The notes under the pieces were generated by a model. It did not search any database. It saw only the letters and a program-made list of their open reading frames with translations, and was not told where the DNA came from. Of a stretch of 64,000 bases of DNA, positions 19,525-64,000 are shown piece by piece (positions within the stretch are counted from its first letter, which is position 1; every line of letters starts with the position of its first letter). A program made the translations under genes and the position numbers. This stretch comes from Nitrosomonas sp. Nm51 (lineage in GTDB: Bacteria; Pseudomonadota; Gammaproteobacteria; Burkholderiales; Nitrosomonadaceae): the NCBI RefSeq assembly GCF_900111165.1, contig NZ_FOGH01000004.1, positions 62,001 through 126,000 of the forward strand, given 5' to 3'.

Positions 19525-21027
19525 TCATGATTTCTGCATTTGCTGCTGGAATGTAATCTCGATAAATTCTGCCGGACGGCTTAAGGCAACCAGTACTGTA
19601 ACGCGCAAAATACCATCGAGAATATCCTGTGGCGTCATGGTCTCACCAAGTCCCACATACACACCAAATGCATCTTCGGGTGTAGTACCCGCCAATCCGC
19701 CGCGCTTCCAGATACTGATCAAAAAATTGTTAATCATACTTTTGATCGTCACCCAGGTATTGGAAACATTGGGCTCAAACACATAAGCCTTGGCGGCCAG
19801 CTTGATGGATTCCTCAAGCATGATCATGGTTCTGCGCACATTGATATACCGCCAGTCCAGACTATTTCCATCCAGCGTACGCGCTCCCCATACCAGTGTT
19901 CCTTCCCCGATAAACGAACGTATGGCATTGATCGACTTACCGGCCGTGGTTACGTTCAAATCTTCCTGTTCATCATGTGTAATTTCGATCGACGGCGAAA
20001 CCACACTGTTGAGGCTGACATTGGCTGGTGCCTTCCAGACGCCACGGGTATTGTCGACCATTGAATAAATGCCGGCCATAGCGGCCGCCGGCGGAAGTAA
20101 ATTCAAGCGGCTTCTGACGGCCAGCAGGATCATTCCGTATAACGGGCTGACCACATTCAGCGTTTTATGCAATTCCGGATCGTCCGCATCCGATATTTTT
20201 TTTGTCTGCGCCTTTATTTCATCTTTCTTTGCATCGGTCAACTGGCTGTTGTCGACTTCGGCGTCCAGCAGCTCTTTTAAGGTATCCAGGTTGGTTATGT
20301 TGGAGAAACTCAGTTCACCAGCCTGCACGACCGATGTGTTCAACCAGGGATAGTACGCTGCAGCAAAATCCAGAAAACTGGTGCCGAGCTTATTGCGGAA
20401 GCTTTCGATACAGTTACCGTCCGGATCATGTTGATCTCTGTAACCATTGTACAGGTCGAGAATGGCAAAACGGTTTTTCATCACGTAACCGCAATGTTTT
20501 AATGCAGCTTGCTGCAATGCAATGCAATCGTCTTCTTTGTCGATGGACATGGCATCCGGAATCACCACCATGGTGGGTTCCTGTTCTTTCAGCAGTACTT
20601 TGATGCCGCCTTCAAGTTTTGCCTTATCAATAGCGCCTTCGTTATATTTGCCGACCGAGATCACATAACATGCCCCGCCGCCATTCTGGAAGAACAGTAT
20701 CATACTGTAGTAGAGCAGAAACCGTTGATTCTGGTGTATCAGGTAGTACTCTTTTCCATCGCTGGAGAAATCCGCTTCCGCCGATGACGCATCTTCAGGC
20801 TTTTTATCCTGAATTTCAAACTGCGATTTGGGCGCACCACCGAAAAAACTGATGAACTCTGCCATCGACGAAATGCGCCATGCTTTGTTTAACAGCGTTT
20901 TACCCTGATTATCGGCGCGTTCCGTATACCCGATAAAGGCCGGCACCGCAGTTGCAACTTCAACCACGGAATTTGGAAACGCATTTTTTTCAACAATGTA
21001 AACACCCGGTGTTTTGTACTGCCCCAT
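19525..21027 (-). CDS. Contractile sheath protein (Afp2-4/Pvc2-4-like)
   Basis: This 500-aa tail-sheath protein has the N-terminal signature YKTPGVYIVEKNAFPNSV, VATAVPAFIGYTE and RISSMAEFISFFG. Its C-terminal sheath domain contains DWRYINVRRTMIMLEESIK, FEPNVSNTW and SRPAEFIEITFQQ. It polymerises around the tube and contracts to drive it outward. Only one sheath gene is present, whereas afp and pvc carry three, so this particle has a homo-oligomeric sheath unless another copy lies elsewhere. A strong AAAGGAGC ribosome-binding site lies just upstream of the ATG. Confidence 0.95.
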   Translation of the reverse strand: MGQYKTPGVYIVEKNAFPNSVVEVATAVPAFIGYTERADNQGKTLLNKAWRISSMAEFISFFGGAPKSQFEIQDKKPEDASSAEADFSSDGKEYYLIHQNQRFLLYYSMILFFQNGGGACYVISVGKYNEGAIDKAKLEGGIKVLLKEQEPTMVVIPDAMSIDKEDDCIALQQAALKHCGYVMKNRFAILDLYNGYRDQHDPDGNCIESFRNKLGTSFLDFAAAYYPWLNTSVVQAGELSFSNITNLDTLKELLDAEVDNSQLTDAKKDEIKAQTKKISDADDPELHKTLNVVSPLYGMILLAVRSRLNLLPPAAAMAGIYSMVDNTRGVWKAPANVSLNSVVSPSIEITHDEQEDLNVTTAGKSINAIRSFIGEGTLVWGARTLDGNSLDWRYINVRRTMIMLEESIKLAAKAYVFEPNVSNTWVTIKSMINNFLISIWKRGGLAGTTPEDAFGVYVGLGETMTPQDILDGILRVTVLVALSRPAEFIEITFQQQMQKS

Positions 21028-55052: not shown

Positions 55053-55457
55053 CTAATCGGTGCTCATACCCAGCAAACCAATTCGCCTGTGATGGTTGGG
55101 TTATTGATTCTCAAGCAACTGGATAACTTGAGCGATGAAGCGGTGGTGTTGCAGTGGAAGCGCAATCCTTACTACCAGTCTTTTTGCGGCATAAAGGAAT
55201 TCCAGCGGAAACTGCCTTGCCATAGCACGGAACTGGTTCATTTTCGCAAGCGCATTGGATTTGGCGGTGCTGAGCGCATTTTCCGGATGAATGTTGATTT
55301 ACATGGCCAGGCGGCGCTGGAAGATGCGGTGCATATTGACACGGCGGTTCAAGAAAAAAACATCACTGACCCGGCGGACAGTAAACTTGCAATCAAAATC
55401 ATCAACCGCCTGATCAAGATAGCCAAAGCACATGGCGTTCCTCAGCTTAATTCTTGA
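55053..55457 (+). pseudogene. IS5-family transposase remnant
   Basis: The frame reads VMVGLLILKQLDNLSDEAVVLQW, NPYYQSFCGIKEFQRKLPC, HFRKRIGFGG and VHIDTAVQEKNIT, matching the N-terminal half of an IS5-family DDE transposase including the first catalytic Asp region. A stop at 55050-55052 cuts it off upstream and the frame breaks after KAHGV near 55441, so most of the protein is missing. No terminal inverted repeats are visible. It is an inactive fragment. Confidence 0.85.
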
Positions 55458-55853: not shown

Positions 55854-56714
55854 ATGAAAATGATGAAGCGTATATTCATTTCACCGCCTGCCGGTAGAAC
55901 AGACAAATCAAATCTGCGTACAATCTTTTCCTCCACGCTTTGCTGCAACAGTTTCCTGATCCTGATGCTTGCGGTTTTACTGGGCGCCTGTACGACCGTC
56001 CCGGTAGCAAACCGGAATGTTGCAAGTGCCGGCGGTTTCTGGGAACAGGACGAAAACACCGATCCACGTTTCCACCATATGGCGAAGGAAGCCGAAAAGG
56101 AGATCGGTATTTTGTATGCTTCCGGCAGCAGTGTTTTAGTAAACGGCACTGCGATGGTAGAAGATACGATGGACATTGAAAATAACAGTTTTGTCAGCAC
56201 AGGCCCCAAAAGCAGCGCCCGCATTGAATTTAAGGACGACGGTTTTTGTTCAATACAAGTCGAGGATTTTTCCGTAGGCAACGGCTATGGAGACACCGCA
56301 AATTGCGAATACAGTATTGTCACAACACATGCCACCGCCAACACACAGGATACAATATACCATATCAACGTGTCCGGCCAGCGCACTGAGATTACAGTTT
56401 TACGCGGGTTGCTCAAGGCGTCACTGCTTGCAGATCCAGCTCAAAGCGCTATCGTCAATAGTGGCGAAGAGATTATCCTGACAGCCGATTCAATTATTGG
56501 ACCACGGCCTGTTTCCTTTGAAGAAATCGAAAGGCGAATTCGCTGGAGGGACAATTACACGTTTCATACAAGTAAAGTCAGCTGGGTTAAAGTACTTGTA
56601 GGCGCGGGTGTTGCCGCCGGTATTGTCGCTGCCATATTGCGTGGCAAATCCGGCGGCGGCAGCCCGCCCGATCGTAGCACCGGCTCCGGTCCAAGTCATA
56701 ATTATCCCGATTGA
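55854..56714 (+). CDS. FecR-domain lipoprotein
   Basis: This 286-aa protein has a long basic N-region, a hydrophobic segment and a lipobox LLGAC with C46, so it is probably a lipoprotein. A FecR-like beta-rich domain follows (about 85-205; GSSVLVNGTAMVEDT, SARIEFKDDGFCSIQVEDF, VSGQRTEITVLRGLLKA). A predicted membrane helix at about 243-262 precedes a glycine/proline-rich tail. FecR-like domains often sense or bind partners in the periplasm. AGAGGAGG lies 6-12 nt ahead of the ATG. It is the first gene of the caspase/CHAT cluster, 69 nt before the caspase gene. Confidence 0.8.
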   Translation: MKMMKRIFISPPAGRTDKSNLRTIFSSTLCCNSFLILMLAVLLGACTTVPVANRNVASAGGFWEQDENTDPRFHHMAKEAEKEIGILYASGSSVLVNGTAMVEDTMDIENNSFVSTGPKSSARIEFKDDGFCSIQVEDFSVGNGYGDTANCEYSIVTTHATANTQDTIYHINVSGQRTEITVLRGLLKASLLADPAQSAIVNSGEEIILTADSIIGPRPVSFEEIERRIRWRDNYTFHTSKVSWVKVLVGAGVAAGIVAAILRGKSGGGSPPDRSTGSGPSHNYPD

Positions 56715-56783
56715 TCGCAGGCGTAACCGGCGATGGCCAGCTCTACTTTATCTATCGATTAACGATTGCGAGAGAAAACAACG

Positions 56784-58904
56784 ATGCAGGATGCAGACAG
56801 TTTTACAAATCAATACCTCGGTGGAATCAGGCAAAACCCGTTGTATGCGGCATTGATCATGCTGGCGTTCTGTTTGTTTTTAAGCATACAGCCGGCACAT
56901 GTACATGCGGCACTCGGTACAACAGCCTTGTCCAAGGCATGCGCGGCAAAAAATGTCACTCCATCCGAAGACGGTCTTCGCCGTCTCGCGCTGATCGTGG
57001 GAGCCGGTCAGTATAAAAGCGCAAAAATACCGGACCTTCCAGGTCCGCCGCAAGATGCGCGGCGATTCTATCAATTGCTGACCGGTCCGAACGGCTATGG
57101 CTTTCCAAAAGAAAACGTATGCGTATTAGTGGATGAAGCGGCTACCACGGCGAATTTTAAGCGGTATTTTTCGAACTTCCTGATCGAACAGGCGCAACCG
57201 AATGATGAGGTTGTTATCTACTATGCAGGGCACGGTTCGCAAACACGGGATCGTGATGGGGACGAACCGGATGGCATGGATGAAACATTCGTTTTCCATG
57301 ATGCCAGAGACAGCGGTATCAAGGATTTTACCGATGACGAATTCGATGAATTATTGACCCGCCTGCATCAGAAGACCAGTCATATCACCGTTTTTCTGGA
57401 CTCCTGCAATTCGGGCACCGCTTTGCGCGGTGACACTGAGTTCTTATCGCGCTATATACCGCCGCCGGAAACTGAAACCACTCGCGAACGCAGTACAGCC
57501 GCAAAACCCGCAACAAATGGCCAGAAAACCGGCTGGATTTCAAAATCCTTGCCAGGGATCGTCGTTTTCACGGCTGCGGGGGACGGGACGGTTGCACTGG
57601 AAAGAAATGCACGCGGTATCTTTACCGATGCGATACTGACAACATTCGGACAGGTTAACGCAACACAGCTGACCTACGCACAGGCAGCCCGGCAGATCAG
57701 GCCGCTGGTAAAAGCGGAGAGTTATCAAATCCCCTATTTTCAGGGAGATTTGCAGCGTACAGTTTTCGCCGGGGTAAACAGAAAATTACCACTGGCCTGG
57801 GAAATTATCGAAATCGCTCCGCAACTTAAACTGGGTGGATTTCCGCTTCCCGGCATCGACACAGGCGCTGAATTCAGAGTATATGATGGCTTTGTAAAAG
57901 GTCCTGATCTTCAGGATCCGACAAAGGCCAAGGCTGTAATTATTGTGGAAGAAAGCACGCGCTTGAACGCCACAGCCCGGATTATTTCCAGACCAGCCAA
58001 TGCAAAACCTATCCGCCCGGGCGATCTGGCGATTTTATCAAGACCCAGCGATGCCCAGCGAACGCTGAAGGTCACGCTTCGTCCGCACACCGAACAAGGC
58101 GGTATTTCGGCAGAACAAGCCAGTCTTATCGGCGCGAGTCTTAATCAGAATCAGGACGCAAAAAACATGATACAGCTGGTCGAGGATAACGGCATCTTCG
58201 AAATCAGTTATGAAAACGATCAATACATTGTAAGCGGCCCGGAAAATCGGGTGCGAAACCGTTTTGCCAAAGCCGACGGCGTAATCGAAAATTTGCGATT
58301 GCATGCGCTGCAGCGTGTACTGAGTACGCTGCGTGGCGAAGGCGGCAGCCTGTTTGAAGATCAGGAAACGTTGCAGGTCCAACTGGTACCGGCGGACAAA
58401 CAGGACCAGTGCGCACAGAAAGCCGACTGGCGGCAGGCGCCGTCAAATACAGTATCCGCTCAGGAAATTCCGCTTTGTTACAAATGGAATGTCAAAGTAA
58501 AGCTCAGTGAAAAATCTCCTGTCCGCCTGTTGGTGGGCGGTCTGATTCTATCGACTGACGGCAGTATTTTCGGTTTACCGGCCGATGGAACGGCGATACC
58601 CCTGGGTCCGGGTGAAGAAGCCGTTTTTGCGGCTAAAGGCGAAACATTTATTGCTTCAGAACCATTAAATATTGAAGATCAAATAGTTGTCTTTGGAACA
58701 CAAGAGACCAATCCGGTTCCGTGGTCTCTGCTAACACAATCCGCTGTACAGCGTGCCGGCGATACCAAAAGCGGATTGTACAAAATACTGGATCAATACT
58801 TGAAAGGCACACGTGGGGTCTCACAACCGGTTGAGACCGATGATACTGATACTGCATGGACCAAAAGCAGTATCACGATGCGCGTGACAGATCCCGGTCA
58901 ATGA
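56784..58904 (+). CDS. Exported caspase family (C14) peptidase
   Basis: This 706-aa protein has a hydrophobic N-terminal segment (about 18-42) ending AHVHA, a probable signal peptide or anchor. A caspase/metacaspase p20 domain follows ([14 protein letters not shown]). The catalytic dyad is H150 in YYAGHGSQ and C208 in LDSCNSG, both intact. The C-terminal half (about 345-700) is beta-rich and ends with a DUF4384-like region ([33 protein letters not shown]). ATG 56784 is chosen; an in-frame TTG is 18 nt upstream. Its stop overlaps an ATG of the next gene (ATGA at 58901). Likely substrates are envelope proteins, none known. Confidence 0.88.
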
Positions 58905-58954
58905 CTTCACGCGCGCAGCCAAACCCCGGTAATGTAAACATAGAGAACATCACA

Positions 58955-59920
58955 ATGTATTTTGCAATCTTCAATCCGGCCTTTTTTGCAAAAATCTGCT
59001 GCGTATTATTTTTAATTGTTTCTACAGCTTCATACGCTGATGAAAAAAACAGAACGATTAAACGTTTCCCGGCGGACATTCGCACCGATACTGACAGAAC
59101 CCAAACGATCCAGCCGCGCAAGCTGCAAATTCAGGAAACACCGCGCAATCAAGCGCCGTTACGCAGCAGGGAACTGCTGCGCACTCAGGAGAGAACGCCA
59201 GTAAAGAATGAATCTTCGTCCACCCAGGAACCGGAACGGGGCTTGATTCAAAAACCATTAGATCAGGACCGGCATCTACAGATACGCAAAGAATTAAACG
59301 ATTTGAAAATACAAACCCGCCGCGTGCGTGGTAATGCGTTGCAGCTTAAACGCCGGATTAGAGATAAACAGCGCGTTTTAGACAGCACCACACAACCACA
59401 GGTCCGGTATCAATTGGAGCTTGAAATAGGCCGGATGCATGAGCAGTTAAATCAAATGAACAATCAGATCGAGAATATGGAAAACCAGCAGCAAATCATG
59501 CGTAAAATGACTACCGGTCAGCAAGGTTTCGCGGATGACGAAGATCACTTAAGCGATTCCGGCTATGGACCGGGACAATCAAATATGGGTGACCGGCGTC
59601 AAAGCCACCCCTGTTTTATCGCGACTGCCGCATACGGCAGCCCTCTCGCCGGAGAGGTGCAAATTCTCAGACAATTCAGGGACAACCATTTGGCAAAAAC
59701 AGCGCTTGGCAGAAACATGATTGGTTTATATGAGACCTATTCGCCGCCTTTCGCCGGCTTCATCTCCAGACACGAAACAGCCAGATCGTTAACCCGGGCG
59801 TTGCTTTGGCCGGTCGTAACTGTTGTCAAATACCCGGTACTGTTGATTTTGAGCCTGGGGTTTCTGCTGGCAATGCTTTCATTGCACAAAAACAGGCGGA
59901 TTTCACATAGTCCATTATGA
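58955..59920 (+). CDS. Exported coiled-coil protein with C-terminal CFI-box and membrane anchor
   Basis: This 321-aa protein starts [19 protein letters not shown] with a signal peptide ending SYA. A charged, Arg/Gln-rich region (about 30-100) leads to a coiled coil (about 102-187). A C-terminal module starting [20 protein letters not shown] (from C220) follows, with [13 protein letters not shown], a membrane helix and a basic end. The [10 protein letters not shown] module is known as the CFI-box C-terminal domain, a suspected sorting or processing signal. An alternative start, ATG 58901, overlaps the caspase stop. Its position next to two cysteine peptidases makes it a candidate partner or substrate. 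Confidence 0.78.
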
Positions 59921-59921
59921 T

Positions 59922-62720
59922 GTGAACGCAGACAGTAACCACAGAAACCGCACACTCTATCAGTCTGTAGCGGTCAGGGGCTGCATAGCTTTTTTGCTGA
60001 CTGTTTATCTCTCAGCGTGCGCATCATTACATGATTTTATTGGCGGCAAACATGTTGGCCGCGCCGAGGTTGAACGTCATGCCGGTTTTACGGCCTACCA
60101 GAAACAAGACTATCCGGCAGCACTGAGACATTACCAGAATGCGCTGGTTTATTTGCCGGCCGATAACAGCGATGCCCAGCGTGCAGATCTTTATTATAAA
60201 ATGGGCCGCACTTACCTTAAACTACAAAACAATACTGCCGCCATCGCCAGCTTTGAACATGCGCTTGCGCTTCGAAAAACGCACAGTGAGCGCGACCGTG
60301 CCATCTTGCACAATATGCTGGGATTGACACACCAAAAAACAGGCAACATTGAAAAATCCCGCGCACATTTAAACAAAGCGCTTGAATTAAGAATTATCAC
60401 CAGGAACATACTCGGCGAAGCCCGAACACTGGGTAATATGGCTGCCACTTACCTTGCTCAGGGACGTTATATCAAGGCCATTGAGCACTATCAACAGGCA
60501 CAGCAGTTATTCGCAAAAACAGCACGTGCGACCCCGACTGATCTGGGAAATATTCAAACGAACCTGAGTTCGGTTTACGCCGAAATGGGCCAGTATGAAA
60601 AGGCGCTGACTCATCAGTTTCGGGCACTCGCCATTTATCAGCAGGCAGGCAATACAGCGGGTATCGCGTCTTCCTATCACAATATCGGCTATATTGAATC
60701 AGAGCAGCAAAATTATGCTGCCGCACTGGATGCTTTCAGACAGGCTGTTGCGTTGCGAGAAAAAATTCAGGATCGATTCGGTGCAGCCGAAACCCGCAAC
60801 AATTACGGTTTGCTGCTTAGTGAAATGGGGCGCCATAAAGCAGCGCTGAGTGCATTGCTTCAGGCGCTGCCGGTTCTGGAGGAATTAAATACCCGCATAC
60901 AAATTGCCGCAACCTATGACAGTATCGGCAGTGTTTATGCACGAATGAACAGACACGCTTCCGCGCTGGAGGCTTTTCAAAAAGCGCTGCTGATTTGGCA
61001 TGAAACCGGTGACCGTGAAAGTGAAAGAATTACCCTGGCTAACATGGGTGATTTGTTCACACAATCCGGACAAGACACGCTGGCCATTGTTTTTTATAAA
61101 CTGGCAGTCAATATCAGCGAAGCAATTCGCGAAGAACTGCAGATATTGCCGCAACAAGAGCAAAAAGCGTATTTAAACCGCGTACAGGGTTTTTACCGCA
61201 AACTGGCTGATTTACTGCTAAAGCAGGACAGAGTCATCGAAACCCAGCAAATCCTGGATTTATTAAAAATCCAGGAAGCAACAAACTTTCTGGGGCCGGT
61301 TCGCGGCAACACCAGTACAGCCACGGGCGTTGCCATGCTGTCTCCCGAACAGCAGATTCAGAAACAGTATGCGCAATTACTGCAGCAGTCTATCCATATT
61401 GGAAAAGAACTGGCTGTATTAAACAGCATAGATAGAAGCGATCGCACTGCAGCGCAGAACGAAAAGCTGCGGCAGCTAATCAAACAGGAACAACAGCTGC
61501 AAAGAGCGTTTGTCAGCTTTATTGAAAGTAGTGAAATCAGAGATTTGATCGATCAACTCGGCCGTGAAGTACGTACGCAAATGCCTGCTTTGGAATATCT
61601 GAGGCCATTGCGTGACAATTTAAAACGACTGGGGGAGCATGTTGTATTGCTTTATCCTCTAATCATGCAAGACCGGCTTGAACTGGTTCTGGTAACAGGT
61701 CTCAGCCCTCCCCTGCATATACCGGTTCCCATCGACCACCAGGATCTTAACCGAACGGTATTGAATTTTCGAACCGCGTTAATCGGCCGTCAGGACACAG
61801 TACAGAAGTTCGCGCAACAGTTATACCAATGGCTTATTAAACCGGTTGAACATTTATTAACAGAAGTTAATGCGGATACCATTCTTTATGCGCCGGATGG
61901 AATACTGCGGTATGTTCCCTTAGCTGCCTTGCACGACGGACAGCAATGGCTGATACAACAGTATAAAATTAATAACATTACCGCATTTTCTTTGACCGAT
62001 TTGGATACCCGTCCGGTCAAGGAAGCAAAATTATTGGCAGCCGCTTTTACTACTGGAAATTACACATTTACCATCGGAGATCAGACGTTTGATTTTAGTG
62101 GACTGCGATACGCGGGCGAGGAGGTAAATAATTTAACGGAAATTTATCCCGACATGACTAAACTTCTGGATAAGAATTTCAGCCCGGATACGGTGATTAC
62201 AGAAATCAATCAATTCAATATCGTTCATTTCGCAACGCACGCAGCGCTGGTGCCTGACAAAGCATATGAATCATTTATTCTGTTTGGTAACGGTGAAAGA
62301 GTAACCGTGGATCAGGTCAAGTACGAATGGAACCTGACAAATGTCGATTTGATTGTATTGAGCGCCTGTGAAACCGCCTTGGGCGCCGTTTTCGGCCAGG
62401 GAGAAGAAATTCTGGGATTGGGTTTCTTAATGGAAAGTGCTGGGGCAAAAGCCACGCTGGCCTCATTATGGCCGGTCGATGATCGTGGAACACAATTGCT
62501 GATGAATAAATTCTACACAGAGCTCAAGCAACACGGCGCCACAAAAGCAGCTGCGCTTCAAAAAGCGCAGCTATCCATGCTGTCGGAATCGGTACTTTCA
62601 CCGGTGTCTGATGCTGATCGCGGCGTGTTGCGTGAACGGGATGCAGCGCCGGCCTCGAATCAACACACCGTGCATCCCTATTATTGGGCGCCTTTTATCC
62701 TAATTGGCAATGGCTTATAA
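59922..62720 (+). CDS. TPR-CHAT lipoprotein (putative cysteine peptidase)
   Basis: This 932-aa protein has a signal sequence with lipobox LSAC (near 29-32). About ten tetratricopeptide repeats span about 45-420 (for example FTAYQKQDYPAALRHYQNAL). A helical linker and a C-terminal CHAT domain (about 600-932) follow. The clan-CD dyad is intact: H773 in HFATHA and C816 in LSACETALG, followed by GLGFLMESAGAKATLASLWPVDD. The start is GTG one base after the stop of the previous gene. In other bacteria TPR-CHAT proteins are proteases activated by partner proteins; being a lipoprotein, this one would act in the envelope. Confidence 0.9.
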   Translation: MNADSNHRNRTLYQSVAVRGCIAFLLTVYLSACASLHDFIGGKHVGRAEVERHAGFTAYQKQDYPAALRHYQNALVYLPADNSDAQRADLYYKMGRTYLKLQNNTAAIASFEHALALRKTHSERDRAILHNMLGLTHQKTGNIEKSRAHLNKALELRIITRNILGEARTLGNMAATYLAQGRYIKAIEHYQQAQQLFAKTARATPTDLGNIQTNLSSVYAEMGQYEKALTHQFRALAIYQQAGNTAGIASSYHNIGYIESEQQNYAAALDAFRQAVALREKIQDRFGAAETRNNYGLLLSEMGRHKAALSALLQALPVLEELNTRIQIAATYDSIGSVYARMNRHASALEAFQKALLIWHETGDRESERITLANMGDLFTQSGQDTLAIVFYKLAVNISEAIREELQILPQQEQKAYLNRVQGFYRKLADLLLKQDRVIETQQILDLLKIQEATNFLGPVRGNTSTATGVAMLSPEQQIQKQYAQLLQQSIHIGKELAVLNSIDRSDRTAAQNEKLRQLIKQEQQLQRAFVSFIESSEIRDLIDQLGREVRTQMPALEYLRPLRDNLKRLGEHVVLLYPLIMQDRLELVLVTGLSPPLHIPVPIDHQDLNRTVLNFRTALIGRQDTVQKFAQQLYQWLIKPVEHLLTEVNADTILYAPDGILRYVPLAALHDGQQWLIQQYKINNITAFSLTDLDTRPVKEAKLLAAAFTTGNYTFTIGDQTFDFSGLRYAGEEVNNLTEIYPDMTKLLDKNFSPDTVITEINQFNIVHFATHAALVPDKAYESFILFGNGERVTVDQVKYEWNLTNVDLIVLSACETALGAVFGQGEEILGLGFLMESAGAKATLASLWPVDDRGTQLLMNKFYTELKQHGATKAAALQKAQLSMLSESVLSPVSDADRGVLRERDAAPASNQHTVHPYYWAPFILIGNGL

Positions 62721-62985: not shown

Positions 62986-63684
62986 ATGCATAAAGCTATT
63001 ATATTGATTATTCTCAGTATCGCGCTAGCCGTGCAGTTATCTGGTTGCGCTCAAATGCAGCATCAGCCGGTCGAACAAATACCGGATGCCCTGACACCCG
63101 GCATTTTTCTGGATGAAACGCGCGGCTTGATTCCAGAAGGTGTTGAATTAAGAGAAGTTTATCCACCCGGAATAGAATTAACCAAGATATCTGAAGGCTT
63201 CCGAAGCGAATTGTATAATGACGCAGCGGGGTTTTGCACCATAGGTTATGGACATCTGATAAAAAAAGCGCCCTGTGACGGCACTGAAAAACAGGAATTC
63301 ATATTCGGTATCACGGAACAACAGGGCGAGGCGTTATTGATTGAAGACATGGACTGGGCCAAATATTCTGTGATGAAAGCCGTAACTGTCGAATTGACTC
63401 CAGGCCAGTATGCGGCGCTGGTGGATTTTGTTTTTAATGTTGGCAGCGGCAACTTCAACAGGTCCACTCTGCTCAAAAAATTAAATGCTCAGCAGCATTC
63501 GGAAGTTCCAGCGCAATTCAGGCGCTGGATACGCGCTGGCGGCAAAATGTGGCAGGGACTCGTAACACGCCGGGAACGTGAAGTAGATTTATATTTGGAA
63601 GGAACGGCTATTCCACGTTTATTACCACAAGAGGGTGAAGAATTACCGGACATCGATATCCGCAAAGGCGAGTCCGGCAGTTAA
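62986..63684 (+). CDS. Lysozyme-like lipoprotein (GH24 family)
   Basis: This 232-aa protein has a signal peptide with lipobox LSGC (C21), a linker, and a phage-type GH24 muramidase domain from about 62. The catalytic triad pattern Glu-8x-Asp-5x-Thr is present: E70, D79 and T85 in ISEGFRSELYNDAAGFCTIGYGH. Later ALVDFVFNVGSGNF and RRWIRAGGKMWQGLVTRRERE match the family. It should cut peptidoglycan from the outer-membrane or periplasmic side. It has its own GGGAGAT ribosome-binding site and lies 265 nt after the CHAT gene. Confidence 0.92.
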   Translation: MHKAIILIILSIALAVQLSGCAQMQHQPVEQIPDALTPGIFLDETRGLIPEGVELREVYPPGIELTKISEGFRSELYNDAAGFCTIGYGHLIKKAPCDGTEKQEFIFGITEQQGEALLIEDMDWAKYSVMKAVTVELTPGQYAALVDFVFNVGSGNFNRSTLLKKLNAQQHSEVPAQFRRWIRAGGKMWQGLVTRREREVDLYLEGTAIPRLLPQEGEELPDIDIRKGESGS

Positions 63685-63733: not shown

Positions 63734-64000
63734 ATGGATAATTTTGTAAGCTCCAGGTCAATGATCACGCCCGGTCTTGCTGGCAGCGCAACCACCATGA
63801 TTACGGGTACTTTGGTAACGACATTCGGATTTCCCGGTGCCGTTACCGCACTGATAGTCAGTTTTGTATTCGGTTTAATGGCTCTCGCGGACAAATCAGT
63901 CGCGGCTTATTATAAATTTATTTTCTATATCATTAATTCAGTCACTATTTTTTCAGTGGCGGTCGGCCTTAACCAGGCTGGTATGGCAATTATAGAGCGC
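63734..64000 (+). CDS. Small membrane protein, 3' end cut by window edge
   Basis: The first 89 codons are visible. At least three hydrophobic segments can be seen (about 20-45, 52-65 and 66-85 in part), with MDNFVSSRSMITPGLAG at the start. I do not recognise the family. AGGTG lies 8 nt upstream of the ATG. It lies 49 nt after the lysozyme gene on the same strand; together they vaguely recall a phage lysis pair (endolysin plus small membrane protein), but that is speculation. Confidence 0.6.
   Translation, partial: MDNFVSSRSMITPGLAGSATTMITGTLVTTFGFPGAVTALIVSFVFGLMALADKSVAAYYKFIFYIINSVTIFSVAVGLNQAGMAIIER

Follow-up and report, generated by a model that had tools for sequence, protein, structure and literature searches.

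The window analyzed here, a 64,000-nucleotide stretch of contig NZ_FOGH01000004.1 from Nitrosomonas sp. Nm51, ends in a run of genes encoding a FecR-like lipoprotein, an exported caspase (peptidase C14), a protein with a CFI-box, a lipoprotein that combines tetratricopeptide repeats (TPRs) with a CHAT protease domain (CHAT1), a lipoprotein endolysin and a small membrane protein of 124 amino acids (aa). Among 149 genomes, this module and an orthologous contractile injection system (CIS) occur in exactly the same six, and the two adjoin in three of them; the association between the module and the CIS is well supported. The mechanism is what we infer: tentatively, and with less than even confidence, the cluster is interpreted as a protease and lysis module of the envelope that acts together with a CIS of the cell-death (Streptomyces-like) lineage. 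The initial annotation of this DNA had described the first four genes as a periplasmic protease relay; judged from the sequence, the main context is the co-inherited CIS together with the endolysin, which lay beyond the view of that annotation.

The distribution search covered 149 relatives, from the same genus to the same order. Close orthologs of the caspase and CHAT1 were detected in six of these, namely the window genome (G000), N. marina Nm22 (G056), N. marina Nm71 (G083), and the metagenome-assembled genomes ACE_PRO54 (G065, hereinafter PRO54), OFTM190 (G081) and OFTM255 (G019); the carriers are ammonia-oxidizing Nitrosomonas bacteria. The 124-aa protein is found in the same six genomes, and so is a full-length ortholog (at least 75% identity) of the CIS sheath protein, the remaining sheath matches being partial or below 60% identity. 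The CFI-box protein has matches in 10 genomes, near full-length orthologs in the six carriers and four proteins that share the CFI-box only, and its gene sits between those of the caspase and CHAT1 in all six carriers. FecR-like proteins are encoded in 41 genomes: the six carriers, 34 other genomes of the same genus and one of another genus.

In the window genome, the CIS genes form a run on contig C130 that encodes Pvc16_N, sheath, gp19-type tube, CIS_tube, hub, gp25, baseplate J and Tail_P2_I proteins and a PASTA protein; with sheath, tube, hub and baseplate genes in one run, this locus is, by its gene content, a contractile injection system. No ATPase family was detected among the ten C130 products scanned; an AAA+ ATPase is usual in the runs of extracellular CIS. 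The run continues with a gene for a 182-aa transmembrane (TM) protein and then with CHAT2, a second TPR-CHAT lipoprotein that is a paralog of CHAT1 (~30% identical) and has the catalytic dyad in the four orthologs aligned. In Nm22 and Nm71, CHAT2 stands between the CIS run and the cluster, which comes next on the same strand, and in OFTM190 the cluster adjoins the CIS in convergent orientation, the FecR-like and CHAT2 genes being located on another contig; together, these are the three of six carriers in which the cluster and the CIS are contiguous. The OFTM255 cluster occupies a 15.5-kb contig without a CIS, with another TPR-CHAT gene where OFTM190 has the CIS, and this genome was scored neither as adjoining nor as separate. 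CHAT2 is found beside the CIS in five of the six carriers, including the window genome and PRO54 (OFTM190 was left unscored); in OFTM255, it lies ~5 kb from the CIS, with genes for a FecR-like protein, a lipoprotein and an exported caspase-FGE protein in between.

The nearest solved structures for the sheath protein are 8BKY/9GTP (E = 1e-96) and 8BL4/9GTS (E = 3e-94), followed by 9EZM, and similarity is also detected to Anabaena All3325 (E = 5e-53) and to Pvc2 (E = 2e-50). The entries 8BKY and 8BL4 come from the paper on a cytoplasmic CIS that mediates cell death in Streptomyces (PMC10066040), and 9GTP and 9GTS from the paper on CisA (PMC12237407). Because the sheath is closest to these Streptomyces cytoplasmic CIS structures, the Nitrosomonas CIS is placed near the cell-death lineage, a presumed kinship drawn from the sheath alone. 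The CIS gene that follows the tube gene (L108:2602-4065, G000:C130) shows 45-48% identity to its counterparts in Nm22 and PRO54, with a ratio of nonsynonymous to synonymous substitution rates (dN/dS) of 0.39-0.49, in contrast to 93% identity and a dN/dS of 0.05 for the sheath; the product of this fast-evolving gene could be an effector or a tail fiber. Just before the CIS run in Nm22, there is a gene (L127:10291-11466, G056:C31) whose product matches phrog_27932, a baseplate hub/tail lysozyme family (5e-19), as well as an RTX repeat. The window itself encompasses a second, Pvc-type CIS (1702-22705, minus strand; read by eye), the sheath of which (19525-21027) is 29% identical to the C130 sheath (blastp).

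The carriers form no single clade. On a tree of two genes, sucC and sucD, for 40 genomes chosen from the 85 of the same genus, with the carrier group named before the tree, the carrier label requires at least four changes, and a tree with one carrier clade is rejected (approximately unbiased test, p-AU 1e-45); neither the cluster nor the CIS is found in close relatives such as G037 and G080. The initial annotation had staked its proposal on a conserved neighborhood, and one exists, given the cluster in 6 of the 149 genomes and carriers outside a single clade. No close homologs of the caspase were found in phages or viral contigs, and 80 plasmid records contain distant caspase matches only (<60% identity). 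Every part of the module is under purifying selection, with dN/dS values of 0.06-0.25. In comparisons with the N. marina and PRO54 orthologs, the FecR-like protein has values of 0.18-0.22, the caspase 0.09, the CFI-box protein 0.16-0.25, CHAT1 0.10-0.16, the endolysin 0.08-0.10 and the 124-aa protein 0.06-0.07 (without Nm71); these are rough values because dS approaches or exceeds 1 in many pairs and is not computable for several OFTM190 pairs.

Within the window (Table 1), the FecR-like, caspase, CFI-box and CHAT1 genes are separated by 69, 50 and 1 bases, if the caspase is started at ATG 56784 and the CFI-box protein at ATG 58955, the more likely start of the latter; the start codon of CHAT1 lies one base past the CFI stop. 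Given these gaps, the run is operon-like, in agreement with the tight arrangement initially described. The four-gene set stands, but its proposed end at 62720 does not, since the endolysin and 124-aa protein genes follow; the match to the latter spans C80:125734-126105 and crosses the window end at 64000. An alternative TTG start of the caspase would change the numbering of its dyad to H156/C214. The direct neighbors of the FecR-like gene are the DUF772 fragment, a DUF3422 gene and the caspase gene, with no extracytoplasmic function (ECF) sigma factor gene among them, such as would accompany a FecR anti-sigma regulator; the DUF772 fragment could be a trace of the rearrangement that separated the cluster from the CIS. 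Promoter-like sites occur at chance level (13 observed vs 11.5 expected), and terminator-like sites are above chance (22 vs 11.4, s.d. 3.7), most of them inside genes on the opposite strand, and were not used.

Table 1. Genes of the module and its upstream context in the window
Feature	Coordinates	Strand	Description
DUF772 transposase fragment	55089..55457	+	just 5' of the run; context
FecR-like lipoprotein	55854..56714	+	286 aa; lipobox LGAC (C46); invariant mature cysteines C132 and C151; C-terminal hydrophobic helix
Exported caspase (peptidase C14)	56784..58904	+	706 aa from ATG 56784; predicted signal peptide; dyad H150/C208
CFI-box protein	58955..59920	+	predicted signal peptide; C-terminal CFI-box, TM helix and basic tail; coiled coil by eye
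CHAT1, TPR-CHAT lipoprotein	59922..62720	+	932 aa; dyad H773/C816; GTG start
Lipoprotein endolysin (phage lysozyme, GH24)	62986..63684	+	lipobox LSGC; E70/D79/T85
Small membrane protein	63734..64000 (start only)	+	124 aa; 2-3 predicted TM; end beyond the window, contig C80:126108

The caspase matches PF00656 (E = 1.2e-23), and its closest solved chain is Metacaspase-1, 4f6o (E = 2e-21); the C-terminal half of the protein has no Pfam match, and a single-sequence fold prediction reached a predicted local distance difference test score (pLDDT) of 35 and was not used in any fold search. CHAT1 matches PF12770 (E = 2e-62) in addition to the TPRs. The His/Cys dyads of both proteases, described as intact in the initial annotation, are indeed retained in all six carriers. 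The endolysin is similar to PF00959 (E = 2.7e-40) and to the phrog_7 endolysin (4.5e-46), and its E70, D79 and T85 are spaced like the Glu/Asp/Thr triad of T4 lysozyme.

Export signals were called from simple hydropathy and lipobox patterns rather than with SignalP. In the window, lipoboxes are recognizable in the FecR-like protein, CHAT1 (LSAC) and the endolysin, and the caspase and the CFI-box protein possess Sec-type N-termini; CHAT1 of Nm22 and Nm71 has a less typical lipobox (TAAC). In all six orthologs, the mature proteins have an even number of conserved non-catalytic cysteines, four in the caspase and two each in the FecR-like protein, the endolysin and CHAT2; CHAT1 contains none, and the CFI-box protein has one, that of the CFI-box. 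Because these cysteines come in even numbers, they independently support the export signals, so that the earlier prediction of export for all four proteins appears sound and residence of the module proteins in the envelope is supported at the sequence level. In OFTM255, a single protein of 1175 aa (G019:C170:8141-11668) joins, in frame, the lipobox-bearing FecR-like part to CHAT1, whose own lipobox it replaces. This fusion suggests that the FecR-like protein and CHAT1 should share one compartment and probably act together, so a FecR/CHAT partnership is likely. Exported caspases are no rarity in the genus, and the suggestion that they are new was too strong: prokaryotic metacaspases with an N-terminal TM or probable signal peptide, probably exported C14 peptidases, were already described in 2012 (PMC3501461), although the accessible part of that paper mentions no CIS, CHAT or endolysin context.

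Linkage of caspase or CHAT genes to a CIS is not a general trait: of 40 other sheath loci, some of which may belong to phage tails, none has either gene within ~10 kb by open reading frame (ORF) calls and six-frame search. Of these loci, 38 are in non-carriers and two in carriers (G065:C12 and G083:C76), and six of the stretches are shorter (13-19 kb) than 19.9 kb; the counts come from profiles built for this analysis, of which the caspase profile recovers 24 of 24 caspase loci, partly its own source sequences, and the CHAT profile is uncalibrated. Outside the 10-kb reach, G071 and G059 each have an exported caspase encoded ~5-6 kb beyond the final genes of another CIS. That of G071 (L242:12636-13451, G071:C102) has a lipobox-like start and follows a small lipoprotein gene, ~5 kb beyond the final gene near that CIS; that of G059 (L244:712-6243; G059:C1, ~1134711-1140242) is a 1280-aa protein encoded behind a 550-aa ShlB/FhaC-like gene (by eye), ~6 kb from the CIS, and is possibly two-partner-secreted. 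Proximity of caspase and CHAT genes by mere chance was rejected as a reading. A CHAT gene lies within 15 kb of the caspase in 12 of 74 caspase rows, nine in carriers and 3 of 62 in non-carriers (G127, G009 and G137); 74 of 77 rows were used, the weaker G013 row, G000:C83 and G009:C127:3638 being left out, as were four CHAT rows (the second from G022, a G061 fragment, G091:C102 and G104:C2:269303, the last overlapping a caspase match). A second, divergent pair of an exported caspase (712-717 aa) and an exported TPR-CHAT protein (1132-1315 aa) is present at L130 (G083:C47), L131 (G056:C33) and L112 (G019:C135), and only in OFTM255 is this pair found beside the CIS. A sheath scan of wider genome contigs yielded six loci, five from Nitrosomonas and one from a Nitrososphaerales archaeon, the latter with no CHAT or caspase.

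Several observations weigh against a module that works with the CIS. The two are not neighbors in the window genome and PRO54, and exported caspase/CHAT pairs occur away from any CIS at L130 and L131. In a pairs test with one label for the module and the CIS (same rows), all four independent pairs agree (p 0.125), and this test cannot reach significance because there are only four independent changes. The FecR-like protein falls below the family cut-off of PF04773 (E = 0.065, 14 vs 24 bits), which is matched at E <= 1 by 13 of 19 members of its family (best E = 8.9e-4); because this match is weak, the protein is called FecR-like here. The 124-aa protein has no match among PHROGs families and no Pfam holin match, and is holin-like by topology only. 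The substrate, trigger and protease activity of the module are predicted, and transfer of an island as one unit would give the same co-occurrence without shared function. The module could then be cargo on a shared island: proteases for envelope stress in general (FecR-like protein, TPR-CHAT lipoproteins and caspase) that travel with the CIS and do not act on it. The separate locations in two genomes and the CIS-free pairs fit this alternative, as do the FecR-like proteins of the 34 same-genus non-carriers, where the six loci inspected (L115-L120) have no CHAT or caspase within ~5-6 kb. However, the module and the CIS have been kept together through at least four gains or losses, though separated in two genomes, and CHAT2 stays at the CIS in five of six carriers, and we regard passive cargo as rather unlikely.

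The CFI-box protein matches NF041770 (E = 7.4e-27, 93 bits vs a cut-off of 40) over residues 253-321 of 354, which bears out the CFI-box initially noticed at its end. Its C-terminus, with the motif, TM helix and basic tail, resembles a sorting signal, and its gene is placed between the two protease genes in the six carriers; these features are compatible with the proteases processing or sorting this protein in a complex that assembles the envelope anchor of the CIS. Such surface-protein maturation is nevertheless improbable, given that, of the six proteins aligned, the CFI-box protein shows the lowest conservation (47-70% identity) and that, although the CFI-box is present in 13 of 319 genomes of the phylum, none of the 12 other loci encodes a caspase or CHAT (six-frame search; 3.2-19.9 kb each, several ended by a contig edge). 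The same 12 loci speak against the CFI-box as a general caspase substrate, and the role of relay substrate first assigned to this protein is not supported.

CHAT and caspase proteases act in known defense systems, and a periplasmic anti-phage relay was the function originally proposed. A defense role is not supported: PADLOC yields nothing beyond its generic models for caspase and TPR and a weak match to DpdH, no nuclease, gasdermin or CRISPR effector was detected among the seven proteins scanned, and the partners to which the cluster is linked are a CIS and an endolysin. A relay of this kind is quite improbable, the least probable of the alternatives considered. The likeness to Craspase (Cas7-11 with TPR-CHAT), as far as its description was available, is in the TPR-CHAT protease, whereas the Nitrosomonas CHAT1 is a predicted envelope lipoprotein, and positions 50-64 kb of the window contain no gRAMP-like (Cas7-11) gene, as the largest ORF there is 932 aa long.

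Under the preferred reading, that of a module working with the CIS, the lipid-anchored FecR-like and TPR-CHAT proteins would sense damage or CIS docking at the outer side of the cytoplasmic membrane and switch on the caspase and CHAT proteases. These would cut envelope partners, such as the endolysin, the CFI-box protein or CIS-anchoring proteins like the PASTA protein. With the wall then opened, the CIS would fire, or the cell would lyse and expose it. The outcome would be regulated cell death run from the periplasm. That a periplasmic caspase/CHAT cascade triggers or executes a cell-death CIS, with lipid-anchored sensors switching on both the endolysin and firing in a regulated-lysis pathway operated by exported clan-CD proteases, is a possible but doubtful specific version.

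Among known systems, the cytoplasmic CIS of Streptomyces coelicolor with its membrane protein CisA (PMC10066040, PMC12237407) has the closest solved sheath and belongs to a lineage tied to stress-induced cell death in which a membrane factor is needed for firing; it differs in the Gram-positive host, and the accessible portions of these papers mention no caspase, CHAT or endolysin module. The thylakoid-anchored CIS of Anabaena (PMC8894136) is membrane-anchored and exposed in stress-induced lysed ghost cells that lack the wall and outer membrane; mutants without the CIS still formed ghost cells, the sheath is more distant from the Nitrosomonas one, and the word caspase is absent from the main text as available. 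By analogy, these ghost cells may serve as an earlier example of a CIS exposed by stress-induced lysis. In the open-licence literature, no work was found joining contractile injection with the CHAT domain or a contractile injection system with a metacaspase, or using the term CFI-box, and the available main text of Geller 2021 (PMC8213781) contains neither of the words caspase and CHAT.

The association of the module with the CIS hints at a controlled way of breaking the cell open. As far as the available part of the CisA paper indicates, the triggering of cytoplasmic, cell-death CIS is largely open, with one membrane factor described, CisA in Streptomyces (PMC12237407). If the proposed role is true, the exported caspase, CHAT and endolysin would be named, mutable parts for CIS triggering in a Gram-negative bacterium, and caspase-like proteases would be placed in bacterial regulated lysis outside the cytoplasm.

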